64,000 bases of DNA. It comes from Entoloma clypeatum. Taxonomy: Eukaryota > Basidiomycota > Agaricomycetes > Agaricales > Entolomataceae. Where the stretch lies: NCBI GenBank assembly GCA_963565915.1, contig OY751488.1, forward strand, positions 2,356,001-2,420,000. Direction: 5' to 3'. The notes below the pieces were generated by a model. That model made no database searches. It saw only the letters and a list, made by a program, of their open reading frames with translations, and was not told the DNA's origin. The position numbers and the translations under genes are program-made. Of the stretch, positions 34,676 to 64,000 are shown one piece after another (within the stretch, counting starts at the first letter, position 1; each line of letters starts with the position of its first letter).

Positions 34676-35965
34676 ATGCCTCAATCTCCCCCAAGCAGTA
34701 CCAACGATGACAGTTACAAGGATCCTATGTCATCCCCCCCCTCGTTAGTCATTTCATTTCAATCAACAGGCCGTTCTTCCCCGCTTCACTGAACGCAACC
34801 TCAAAAAGCCTGACAGAAGTGGCTCACACTGCAGCTCAGAAAGCCCGGGAAAAGCAACTCAGAGACGACCCGATGGCAGTCGTTCTGGGTCCTCTTCACG
34901 TCCTTTGTAAACGCTGCAACGCGCGCATTAAGCTTTCTGCGAAGAGCTCGTACGATACCTGGCATTGGCGCACCCATAGATCGAGGTGCTTGAAGCGGCG
35001 CCAACCCAGTTCACCAGGGATACCGCAATCGCCGAAGAGCGTACGTATACTGATCTCAGAGGGAGGACTCTGTTTAGTCCTGACATCTAACGTGTCTCCA
35101 GGCCCCTGTTACGAGTCGTGTCAGGCGATCTCCAAGGCACAAGAAATCCGAAGCGTCATCGGACGAGCCTGAGCGACATGAAGCTTTGCGCACGAATCGA
35201 GTCCCTGTCGTTAAAGGCGAACCAAACAGGGGAAGGAAGGGAAAGCGGAAAATGTTGGATGCAGGAGGTTCTTCAGAAGCAGAGATAGCCCCCACTCAAT
35301 CCACGTCTCGGCCGACCATACGAATTCCAGCAGTGCAGCGGAAGGCTGGAGAGCAGTCAACGGAAGTTAAGCGAGAGAACTTGTTTGCGAGGTTTAGCAA
35401 GGCAAATGGTTACGGCTTGTTGCCACCATTGATAAGCCGTGAACCGAAGATACTTTCAACGGCGGAAGAGGGAGCCGGGAGGGAATCAGATGCGGGGCTG
35501 GGATCGTCCACCCAGCCAGTGTCTCAGCCGACCATACAAATTCCAACGGTGCAGCAAAAGGCTGGAGAGCAGTCGACGGAAGTTAAGCGAGAGGACTTGT
35601 CTGAGAGGTTTAGCAAGGCAAGGGGTTACGGCCCGTTGCCACCGATGAACTATGACCGGATACTTTCAACGACGGAAGAGGGGGCCGGGAGGGAATCAGA
35701 GAAAGATGCAGGGCTGGGATCATCCACCCAGCCAACATCTCCCCCTCGCCTCACTGAGGCAGTATTCGACGAGTATCTTATCCGCTCGAATCGCATGACG
35801 CGTCTGACCTTCCATGACCCCGACGCTTCCTCAAATTGGCGGGATTGGAGCTGGTCGCAGCTGCTTCTCCCTCAATTCGTCGAGTCTGTTTGCGATGACG
35901 ATTACGACAGTGACCTGTATTCGACCCCGATGTCGGTTCCTGCTTTTGCCTCGCCGTCCTTCTAA
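34676..35965 (+). CDS. Paralogous protein with one C-x2-C-x16-W-x2-H-x3-C module, 387 aa
   Basis: Modelled as three exons (34676-34743, 34809-35040, 35102-35965). One module, CKRCNARIKLSAKSSY...WRTHRSRC, has exactly the spacing found three times in the gene just upstream, on the same strand. It is preceded by a helix-like KAREKQLRDDPMAVVLGPLH segment. Downstream comes a basic linker (GRKGKRKMLDAGG) and a two-copy internal repeat of about 72 residues. The last 70 residues are acidic and aromatic (SNWRDWSWSQLLLPQFVE). No known family. The first exon is tentative: the nearest acceptor would give a 26-bp intron, so the next one (65-bp intron with a CTGAAC branch site) was used. Confidence 0.65.
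35306..35740 (+). repeat. Two-copy direct repeat, period about 216 bp, coding
   Basis: Two copies begin at TCTCGGCCGACCATA (35306) and TCTCAGCCGACCATA (35522) and run about 216 bp each. At protein level both contain QxKAGEQSTEVKRE, RFSKAxGYGxLPP and EEGAGRES. The copies differ by scattered substitutions and small in-frame indels, so the duplication is old enough to have diverged but remains in frame. Confidence 0.85.
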
Positions 35966-59923: not shown

Positions 59924-61301
59924 ATGGATAGTGACGAAGATATGATGGATGTTGAGCCCGTCCCGTTGACGGCGAAAGGGAAAGGAAAGGCTGTCGAACA
60001 AGACATCGACCGTGATAACTTGCCATGGTAAACTCACATTCTTTATCGAATAAAACAGATTTCACAATGCATAAGGGTGGAGAAGTACCGACCAGTGACC
60101 TTGGACGACGTTGTCTCGCACAAGGACATAACCAACACAAGTGTGTCGTGTCGTTTTTAATCACCCGACTTCCACTGATGATAAGTGGACCTGAAGTTGA
60201 AAAGTTCATCGAAAAGAATAGGCTACCACATCTTCTCTTCTACGGTCCTCCTGGGACGGGGAAAACCTCCACAATCCTAGCAGTCGCCCGGCGAATATAC
60301 GGTCCCGACTACCGCAAACAAATCCTTGAAGTGGGTTACCATTTGTCAATATTAGGAGCCTTCCCCGTTCACGACCACGCAAAAAGCTCAATGCATCAGA
60401 CGAACGTGGCATCGATGTCGTCCGGGAACAGATCAAACAATTTGCAGAGACACGGACGCTCTTTGCGAAGGGCTATAAACTCATTATCCTCGATGAAGCA
60501 GATATGATGACGCAGGCTGCGCAAGCTGCCCTTCGCCGCGTAATTGAACAGTATACGAAAAACGTCCGCTTTTGCATTATCTGCAACTATGTCAACAAGA
60601 TCATTCCAGCGATTCAGAGTCGATGCACGCGATTCAGGTTCTCTCCACTCCCAATCACCGAGGTTGAAAAACGAGTCGATTATGTGGTGGCAACAGAGAA
60701 GTGAGTGGATTACAGTCATTCAGGCAGTCCCCATCTGATGGCACTGGACTATGGTTAGAGTTAATCTTACAAACGGCGGAAAGAAAGCACTCCTTAAATT
60801 GTCCAAAGGAGACATGCGACGCGCCCTTAACATTCTCCAAGCTTGCCATGCTGCATACGACATCACCGGAGAAACCGAAATATACAATTGTACTGGCAAT
60901 CCACATCCTTCCGATATTGAAACTATCGTGAACTCGATGCTGTCTGATGAATTTACCATATCATACCAGAGTACGATTTCTGTCGTATTTCCTGTGTTCT
61001 CCCTTTGACCTGGATATGAAGTGATATCTAGGTTAAAGACTGAGAGAGGTCTTGCTCTGCAGGATCTCATCATGGGTGCTTATGACTACGTTGAGACGAT
61101 TGAGATAAAACCACATGCTCGAGTCTACCTCCTGGATCACATAGCCACCACAGAGTACGTTTGCTCATTATCAATCATGCTTTTGTCAGCTAATGGAGAC
61201 CTAGGTACCGGCTTTCGACTGGAGCAAACGAAAAACTTCAGTTGACAGCTCTGTTAGGTGCGTTCAAGAACGGAGTAGAACTAGCTGCGAAGAATACTTG
61301 A
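59924..61301 (+). CDS. RFC3: Replication factor C subunit 3 (clamp loader)
   Basis: Seven exons (59924-60027, 60076-60140, 60197-60330, 60387-60700, 60759-60970, 61022-61154, 61205-61301) join to 352 residues. Clamp-loader boxes are intact: [13 protein letters not shown], Walker [30 protein letters not shown], Walker [11 protein letters not shown], sensor I/SRC motif [13 protein letters not shown], and sensor [16 protein letters not shown]. The C-terminal helical collar follows ([16 protein letters not shown]). Rfc3 is one of the small subunits of the pentamer that loads PCNA. An acidic N-terminal extension of about 30 residues precedes the core. Confidence 0.96.
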
Positions 61302-61369
61302 ATGTATCGTGGGTTTGTAGGAATTTGAAATAAATGCATATTGACCATTCAGAGTGGCAAGTGAGGATT

Positions 61370-63735
61370 TCAAACAGAAGCCCCATTCTGTGTCTTTGTA
61401 ACGCTAGTGATAGCACACCCGAAGGGATGAGAGCCTGTAAGACGACAACCAGCAATGAGCTCCGTGGAATCCTTGGCGTCTCTTTGAACTTCCGGCGAAA
61501 TTGTTACATGACCTATGCCGTATGCGGCGAAGCGATCTTGCAAATATTGTTCTGTCTTCTCCCATTCTTCCAGAGCCATGCCCTTTGGAACGCAGACATG
61601 GAGCGATGCCAAGATTATTCTGTTGGTGAGATATGGGTGGATTGTGCCAGAAGGCGCTCGAGGAAAACGCACGATTGGGAAAGATGCCACACATGCAGGT
61701 CATGCACCGAGAGGACGTTGGGAACCTATACTCGAGTCATTAACGCGGGATACTTCGAGGACGAGACAGATCCACTGACCGCCAGGAGGTCGTCTTTAAT
61801 TTTTTCTAGGTCAAGGAATGAAGGGGTTGCTTCGAGAAGGATACGACCTGACTTCAAAGCTGTGGAGTGATCGATGATTAATGAACGGCTATATGAGGAG
61901 AACTTACTCATTGGGACCGCACTCCCAAATATGATGAGACTGATAATAAGAGAAACGGCGGGGTCGGCATAAAACCTATGGGGTGATTGCACCTTCCAAA
62001 TTATAATGGCGGACAGGATGACCGCAACGTCTGAGCAGATTGTGAGATAGGGATGCGCCGCGATCAGGGATCTTCATACTGTTCACTGCATCGCCAAAGA
62101 GGTGGATCAAGACGCCGAGGAGGTTCAAATTGTGTTGAGGGGCAGCAGCGGCTTGGTTGACTGTATGATGGTGGAGGGCGTGCTGACAATGACTATCAAG
62201 TGTCGTCGGTTCTAGTTCGTATGATTATACTCACGACCCTATCCCGAAGCTCAGCTGTTTCGAGTTTTCCCTGGTGAATCAACTCCATCGTATCGGTGCT
62301 ATGCCCATGCTCAACAGGTCCATGTTCTATGGGATGTGCAAATCGATTGCGTGCAATCAACAAAAAAACACTCACCGTGCTCCATCAAGTGGGTGCCATG
62401 TCCATGTCCATGTTCACCATGTGAATGTCCACCATGTCTAGGCCCGCTGTGTTCTATAGGATGCGTAAATCGATTGCGTGCAATCAACAAAAAGAACACT
62501 CACCGTGCTCCAACGCGTCGATGCCATGTTCATGTTCACCATGTTCACCATGTGAATGTCCACCGTGTTCTATAGGATGCGCGAATCAATCACATGCAAT
62601 CAACAAAAAGTTCGAACACTCACCGTGCTCCAACGCGTTGGGGCCATGTCCATGTCCACCACGTTCTATAGGATGCCAAGTCGGTTGTGTGCAATCAACG
62701 AAAAGAAGGACACTCACCACGCTCCATCGCGTCGGTGCCATGTCCATGTTCACCGTGCGAATGCCCACCAAGTTCTATAAGATGCCGAATCGATTGCGTG
62801 CAACCAACGAAAGAAGAATACTCACCGTGCTCCATCGCGTCGGTGCCATATCCACGTTCGCCATGTTCACCATGCGAATGTCCACCGTGTTCTATAGCGT
62901 GCGCGATTCGATTGCATGCAATCAACAAAAAGAAGAACACTCACCGTGGACGGCAAGGATACTTACGATATTGAGGCATAGGCCGATGCTGCCGATGATG
63001 AGCACCTGAATGGGAGCCTTTATCTCCTCGAGGTTGATAAATCTTTCGATGGATTGTAGGAAAATGGACAGCGCCAGTGCAAGCAAGAAAACACCATTGA
63101 AAAATGCACCTGGAGAAATCCAACCTGATGCAGATGCTTAATTAATGGATAAACGCACCAACAAATTCTGCTCGAAGGAAAGCGAATGTAAATTTGGCAT
63201 TCTAACCCCGACATTTTCGTCAACAGACTGTTTGTAGCGATGCATCGAATGTGCTCACAGGCTTCCCTTTCTCATGGAGCTAAGAGAACATTGTAAGTCC
63301 CGTTGCAAGACATCAGGCGATTAAGACTAAACACAAACATGGGCTGCCACGAAGGCTATTGCGCTGTTCAGACAAGAACTTAGACTTTGAGGAAAGCTTT
63401 ATGAACAGGGCTTGCTTACTACGCCACGATATCCTGAATGACGGATTGTGTTAAAACACGACCAATGACTCAAAATCCTAATCCCCGAGACTCACATTAA
63501 GGTAATGGAACTATGTGGCGCAAGGCTCAGTGGCGTAAGTGGAACGTCCATGGGAAGAGGACACAAACAGCATCTGCAATGAGGGCCAAACTCTTGGTCC
63601 GGAATCCAGCTGTAATGCACGAATTCGAGCTAACAATTGGGTCATAGGAAGGAGAGGAGACGCACTAGTGATTTCGGCAAGAAAGAACGCTAAGCTGATA
63701 CACAGGACAATCCCGATGCGAGTTGTATTCTTCAT
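61370..63735 (-). CDS. CDF zinc transporter (ZRC1/COT1-like) with cassette-expanded His-rich loop
   Basis: Nineteen exons in 2.37 kb give 466 residues (63666-63735, 63569-63609, 63496-63510, 63423-63433, 63339-63363, 63259-63279, 63159-63201, 62945-63109, 62826-62891, 62718-62774, 62624-62665, 62504-62569, 62376-62453, 62235-62326, 62080-62182, 61908-62030, 61780-61859, 61673-61725, 61370-61619). Six membrane segments are expected. Zinc-site HxxxD motifs occur in TM2 (DAFHYLNDIVA) and TM5 (LIHLFGDAVN). The C-terminal domain has VHDLHVWHLSQS. Between TM4 and TM5, five tandem exons plus the start of a sixth each add a GGHSHGEHG-type stretch. Fungal relatives move zinc from cytosol into the vacuole; that role here is inferred. 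Confidence 0.92.
62327..62944 (-). repeat. Tandem intron+exon cassette array in the zinc transporter gene
   Basis: Six introns (62892-62944, 62775-62825, 62666-62717, 62570-62623, 62454-62503, 62327-62375; 49-54 bp) share the plan GTGAGTG..CTTTTTGTTGATTGCA.GCAATCGAT....CATCCTATAG with few differences. They alternate with five exons of 66, 57, 42, 66 and 78 nt that all begin with AA(C) after a G of the previous exon and end GAGCACG or close. Every exon is phase 1 on both sides and a multiple of three. The array clearly arose by repeated duplication of one intron-exon unit of about 100-125 bp. Confidence 0.93.
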
Positions 63736-64000
63736 GACGGGAGTTCCTGCGGGTTATAGGTTTATGGCAGATACAGGACGACGATGGACTATATATACAT
63801 AAACACACAGCCGCATGTCACTTACTATCAGTAGAGTCTGCCAGGGGTCACACATTGCAAAGCTCAAGAGAGATGGAAATTATAAGATATAACTATTAGA
63901 TTGGGTTTGATCCACAGGGGACCTGGAACACGTACTGGTACGGTAATCTCGTAAAATTCCGTCCCAGAGTTATCCCCTCCATCCGGGGGTCGGGGGAAAG
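63736..64000. other. Right-edge region upstream of the zinc transporter
   Basis: 265 bp to the window end. It contains ATATATAC near 63790, a possible TATA element about 60 bp upstream of the transporter start. No further gene could be supported. Confidence 0.4.

Follow-up and report, generated by a model that had tools for sequence, protein, structure and literature searches.

The histidine-rich cytosolic loop of a zinc transporter encoded in Entoloma clypeatum has very probably grown from about 60 to 165 residues through tandem duplication of a unit made up of one small intron and one small exon, with the introns constitutively removed and more cytosolic zinc-binding histidines as the outcome. 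A neighbouring copy of the same gene carries no such units, and the two loci together allow the origin of the expansion to be followed in some detail.

The transporter gene and its cassette array

The gene model occupies the minus strand (63735-61370) of the window, by which is meant the whole 64,000-nucleotide stretch of DNA analysed. The introns are all of the GT-AG type in the final gene model, and the reading frame remains open across all 19 exons. The protein matches the Pfam families PF01545 (Cation_efflux; 122.6 bits, cut-off 26.6) and PF16916 (ZT_dimer, the C-terminal dimerisation domain; 43.7 bits, cut-off 26.7), as well as the NCBIfam model TIGR01297 (207.8 bits, cut-off 82.35), and these matches above cut-off uphold the call of a CDF transporter made in an earlier note on this DNA. 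The HxxxD zinc-site motifs of zinc CDFs, as defined in PMC10932157, are found in the translated gene as HYLND in TM2 and HLFGD in TM5. By its sequence the window gene is thus a CDF (SLC30) zinc transporter, Zrc1/ZnT1-like and of the vacuole type, with zinc transport as its predicted activity. The protein aligns to human ZnT1 and ZnT10 (PDB sequence matches), with its histidine-rich part after TM4 as in ZnT1, an alignment that confirms the placement of the array in the TM4-TM5 histidine loop. This loop is bounded by CLNIVS and HLFGD and contains 38 His among its 165 residues. With most of the array left out, core residues are 64-74% identical to those of six compared homologues, the best of which is from Hypsizygus marmoreus. 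The top named homologues of the CDF protein belong to the Agaricales, with H. marmoreus first among those named, and the same is true of an HMG-CoA synthase reading frame. Upstream, the TM2-TM3 region is encoded by four microexons in a row (15, 14, 25 and 21 nt, at 63510-63496, 63433-63420, 63363-63339 and 63279-63259), all four of which are shared by the neighbouring copy.

Between TM4 and TM5, positions 62944-62327 are composed of exactly six similar introns around five small exons (Table 1), and the outer bounds of these introns coincide exactly with the coordinates given for the array in the earlier note. All five cassette exons are multiples of three nucleotides in length and of phase 1-1, and the flanking exons 8 and 14 join the array in phase 1, so that the symmetry claimed for cassettes and flanks is real. 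Each of the six introns starts with GTGAGT and ends in TATAG or CATAG. Over aligned bases they are 77-94% identical in pairwise comparison, with a mean identity over the longer sequence of 82%, against a mean of 56% and a maximum of 64% among the 12 other introns of the gene (66 pairs) and a mean of 58% and a maximum of 66% between array introns and the others. Their length range of 49-54 bp had been given correctly, but to call them near-identical was an overstatement at this range of identity and a mean divergence of 13%. Repeated 12-mers occur 225 times in the array span, compared with 0-4 times in 20 dinucleotide-keeping shuffles. Because the exons are alike too, with a mean divergence between units of 12% as against 13% for the introns, the repeating unit is an intron together with an exon. 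The number of histidines differs widely from cassette to cassette, and some have been lost.

Table 1. Exons and introns of the transporter gene in and around the cassette array (window positions).
Feature	Positions	Strand	Description
CDF zinc-transporter gene	61370..63735	-	19 exons, 467 aa predicted; GT-AG splice model and agreement with paralog and homologues; Pfam, TIGR01297
Exon 8	62945..63109	-	encodes TM4 and the last part of the TM3 region; final bases ...CACG, in phase 1; array donor side
Array intron 8	62892..62944	-	53 nt
Cassette exon 9	62826..62891	-	66 nt; EHGGHSHGEHGERGYGTDAMEH
Array intron 9	62775..62825	-	51 nt; sole array intron leaving the frame open if retained (484 aa)
Cassette exon 10	62718..62774	-	57 nt; ELGGHSHGEHGHGTDAMER
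Array intron 10	62666..62717	-	52 nt
Cassette exon 11	62624..62665	-	42 nt; ERGGHGHGPNALEH
Array intron 11	62570..62623	-	54 nt
Cassette exon 12	62504..62569	-	66 nt; EHGGHSHGEHGEHEHGIDALEH
Array intron 12	62454..62503	-	50 nt
Cassette exon 13	62376..62453	-	78 nt; EHSGPRHGGHSHGEHGHGHGTHLMEH
Array intron 13	62327..62375	-	49 nt
Exon 14	62235..62326	-	original post-intron loop exon; counterpart of paralog exon 9

Origin and age of the expansion

The tandem paralog (G000:C6:2425299-2423469) shares its contig and orientation with the window gene but is situated outside the window, at a distance of 5.6 kb from start to start. It encodes a CDF protein of 367 residues in 14 exons, which match, one for one, those exons of the window gene that are not cassettes. 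Where the window gene has its array, the paralog contains a single 56-nt intron and no cassettes, and its loop comprises 60 residues with 9 His, as against the 165 and 38 of the window gene. Among the top 120 homologues listed of 1530 found, the loop has a median length of 62 residues and a maximum of 87, with no more than 19 His, and none reaches 100 residues; this survey covered candidates of 0.55-1.75 times the query length, and small exons may be missing from some of their gene predictions. In one homologue (P0029) the predicted protein contains additional residues at the equivalent site; they resemble a translated intron, which would fit a shared intron position. Used by itself as the query (residues 121-250), the array gave zero matches at E <= 0.001 among 7994 candidates, a result that carries no weight because known CDF proteins were missed too. 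No intermediate with one to four cassettes was seen in the paralog and the 120 listed homologues.

Because the paralog is without cassettes and none of the listed homologues has a loop of at least 100 residues, the array is most likely a derived expansion, in which the last four nucleotides of exon 8 would have been duplicated together with intron 8 and the beginning of the exon behind it. All five cassettes end in ...GGAG C(A/G)(C/T)G, resembling the CACG end of exon 8. Exon 10 itself ends in CGTG and the other cassettes in a CACG-type copy, and the preceding GGAG matches the interior of exon 14. The first duplication would have been in frame by luck, one breakpoint following ATGGAG in the downstream exon and the other preceding CACG in exon 8. 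Each duplicated unit would bring with it a complete donor and acceptor, and later in-register unequal crossover or slippage would gain a whole coding unit of 3n nucleotides each time, while length errors within the introns would be harmless. The copies of intron and exon lie head to tail and are alike in both parts, their symmetric phase and frame are kept, and the unexpanded relative has a single copy of the site, all as in internal tandem exon duplication. The proposal that the loop can be lengthened by genomic addition of cassettes is thereby borne out, with none in the tandem paralog against five in the window gene. By its sequence the array is an intron-carrying internal duplication, a known process, which is well supported as anatomy and unproven as regulation.

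Over exons 1-8 the window gene and the paralog differ with a dS of 0.31 and a dN/dS of 0.09, values of purifying selection on these exons. The dS falls to 0.05 over exons 15-18, and the introns of the two copies are 96-100% identical in the 3' part and 75-98% in the 5' part. These values suggest that the 3' part was gene-converted after the duplication, with conversion apparently reaching as far as the array. Divergence between units is 8-19% when each exon is taken with the following intron and 10-16% when each intron is taken with the following exon, and single array introns differ by 6-23%. Set against the divergence of the gene copies, these differences between units suggest that the array is at most as old as the gene duplication. 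A loop of variable copy number at the present day, as envisaged in the earlier note, did not find support, as no pair of units looks freshly copied.

The surroundings of the two copies have features of their own. In 100-nt blocks compared with the paralog locus (L009), the 3' part of the window gene (~62240-61570) is 91-100% identical and the 5' part 74-95%. The duplicated block extends beyond the transporter, with the end of a neighbouring reading frame on the plus strand (60927-61325) having a partial copy of 73% identity at L009 5800-6150. This reading frame, which we take to be AAA/replication-factor-C-like, has a Pfam match under the cut-off only. Between or beside the transporter copies, a 1.3-kb stretch (L009 4070-5377) shares 98% identity with a second one that lies elsewhere on the contig, farther along (L010 253-1561), and is perhaps a mobile element.

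Constraint, splicing and alternative explanations

Most likely, all six array introns are constitutively removed to give one protein with a permanently longer loop. Whether this longer loop is of use to the cell is a separate matter. The longer copy may be spliced and made while the array is a neutral by-product of duplication, tolerated and without effect on transport, and this explanation, though the less likely one, has several observations on its side. The synonymous share of differences among cassettes is 0.30, close to the neutral expectation of 0.28 (95th percentile 0.43), so that substitutions within cassettes appear neutral-like and this measure reveals no constraint on the loop at the level of codons; the loop sequence seems to be loosely constrained. 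The short-loop paralog and the homologues also manage without an array, which could accordingly be tolerated, not useful. However, all five cassette exons have held the frame, whereas introns of equal age have drifted in length to 49, 50, 51, 52, 53 and 54 nt, lengths that take every residue modulo 3. This contrast fits a constraint on frame, with codon-repeat slippage as a partial source of the exon length changes, and the remainder of the gene is under purifying selection.

It is very improbable that the loop is tuned by splicing, in the sense that cassettes are skipped in varying combinations to leave 10 to 38 loop His in a mix that follows zinc supply. The count of 32 in-frame skipping combinations given in the earlier note is right as arithmetic: every one remains open to one stop and yields a protein of 364-467 residues with 10-38 loop His, and the form that skips all cassettes (364 residues) is about the length of the paralog. 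The array splice sites are also alike, such that one donor could pair with several acceptors. In a study of 23 fungal species, though, intron retention made up 61% of alternative-splicing events and skipped exons 3%, and intron definition has been proposed for fungi (PMC3925392, in excerpt); with skipped exons so rare, the suggested splice tuning is not supported. Moreover, phase symmetry is an automatic outcome of tandem duplication, passed on with each copied unit, and does not by itself argue for regulated skipping. Retention of a single intron would give a truncated protein for five of the six array introns, and retention of intron 9, which contains no in-frame stop, would add 17 residues in frame. 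The more specific proposal of a zinc rheostat, in which the number of cassettes included would vary with zinc so that the loop carries some 10-38 His beside a fixed short-loop paralog, is likewise highly improbable.

Repeated insertion of introner-like mobile introns into a repetitive exon would account for six similar introns within one gene, and the intron core is partly palindromic (GATTGCATGCAATC, intron 8), but the likeness of the units runs on through the exons. In addition, when no more than one mismatch is allowed, a 20-nt probe from the intron core matches the whole genome at only five places, four in the array and one in the intron of the paralog, and on this basis mobile introns are an extremely unlikely source. 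Outside the locus there are 18 weaker places with 2-3 mismatches, compared with one for a control pattern that is not a strict control, the core being palindromic. At the five of these 18 that were inspected, likeness was essentially confined to the probe, and GTGAGT was not seen upstream. The probe is short (20 nt), and a longer DNA search missed even the intron of the paralog. One intron sequence at unrelated sites, as introner elements would present, was not found among the close matches, which are confined to the array and the intron of the paralog, or at the five weaker places inspected.

Tandem repeats may be misassembled, but an assembly artefact is unlikely because the units differ by 8-19% and in length, and the open frame of 19 exons and low dN/dS likewise speak against a decayed gene; the chance of either is slight in the extreme.

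As a separate observation, a near-perfect palindrome (GATTGCATGCAATC in intron 8, e.g. 62926-62907) occupies the central part of most array introns, as it does in the intron of the paralog. Seven introns folded for hairpins gave z-scores of -1.42 to 1.22 and no structural signal, and Rfam gave zero matches in 60000-64000.

Functional implications and known parallels

ZnT1, ZnT7, the yeast proteins Zrc1/Cot1 and plant MTP1 resemble the window protein in their long cytosolic histidine loop between TM4 and TM5, in HxxxD on TM2 and TM5, and in their C-terminal domain. The roles assigned to this loop within the CDF family include those of zinc buffer, selectivity filter, sensor or zinc-capture loop. 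Deletion of the loop abolishes transport by ZnT7, and deletion of its first half raises the activity of AtMTP1 (all from an excerpt of PMC10932157). The long-loop protein would offer more cytosolic zinc-binding histidines than its short-loop neighbour, in a buffer, sensor or zinc-capture role, and by analogy the two proteins may be unlike in their affinity for zinc, their selectivity or their set point. They represent a natural experiment, as two adjacent and otherwise very similar zinc transporters with loops set apart by five genomic cassettes, through which the function of the histidine loop in CDF proteins, a matter of debate, becomes testable with natural length variants. An intron inside the duplicated unit can also make a low-complexity loop extensible with the frame undamaged. 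We know of no repeated intron-exon units in ZnT1, ZnT7, Zrc1/Cot1 or MTP1. A splice variant of plant MTP1 may lack part of the histidine-rich stretch.

In the earlier note, repeated intron-exon units were said not to be known for His-rich loops, which goes too far as a general statement (AcMT1, PMC12508003; spider silk, PMC9779670); for the histidine loop of CDF proteins itself, no report was found in the accessible literature, a scope that leaves out most subscription journals. AcMT1, a metallothionein of the mushroom Agaricus crocodilinus, was lengthened by an intron-carrying internal duplication, whose copied segment spans part of one exon, the intron behind it and the opening base of the exon that follows. 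Like the window gene, it belongs to the Agaricales, has small introns (~50 bp) and encodes a metal-binding protein that has been lengthened; unlike it, AcMT1 is a soluble, Cys-rich metallothionein with one duplication (PMC12508003). In the window gene there are five phase-symmetric units, whose introns continue to resemble one another, and they encode part of a His-rich loop in a membrane transporter.

Spider silk genes (flagelliform spidroin and Argiope MaSp2) share with the array their head-to-tail exon-intron units, a low-complexity region and mutually similar introns, which in silk are thought to guide unequal crossover. They differ in that they encode structural fibre proteins with homogenised units (PMC9779670, as excerpted). 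The five units of the window array, by contrast, belong to a transporter loop, differ from one another by 8-19% and show no trace of having been homogenised recently. Elastin and the PEVK region of titin, in which many small in-frame symmetric exons encode a flexible region, are animal genes with demonstrated alternative splicing. The array is similar to these in its small symmetric exons.

Histidine enrichment and internal repeats are also encountered in this genome without introns. At another CDF-like locus (L011; G000:C6:3663500-3667500), a long HSHSH-rich stretch lies within one open frame of 672 codons, and enrichment there is by the usual in-exon route. In the window itself, a 216-bp tandem duplication (two copies, 35305-35734) lies in one open frame of the plus strand and contains no intron, as an ordinary in-exon repeat.
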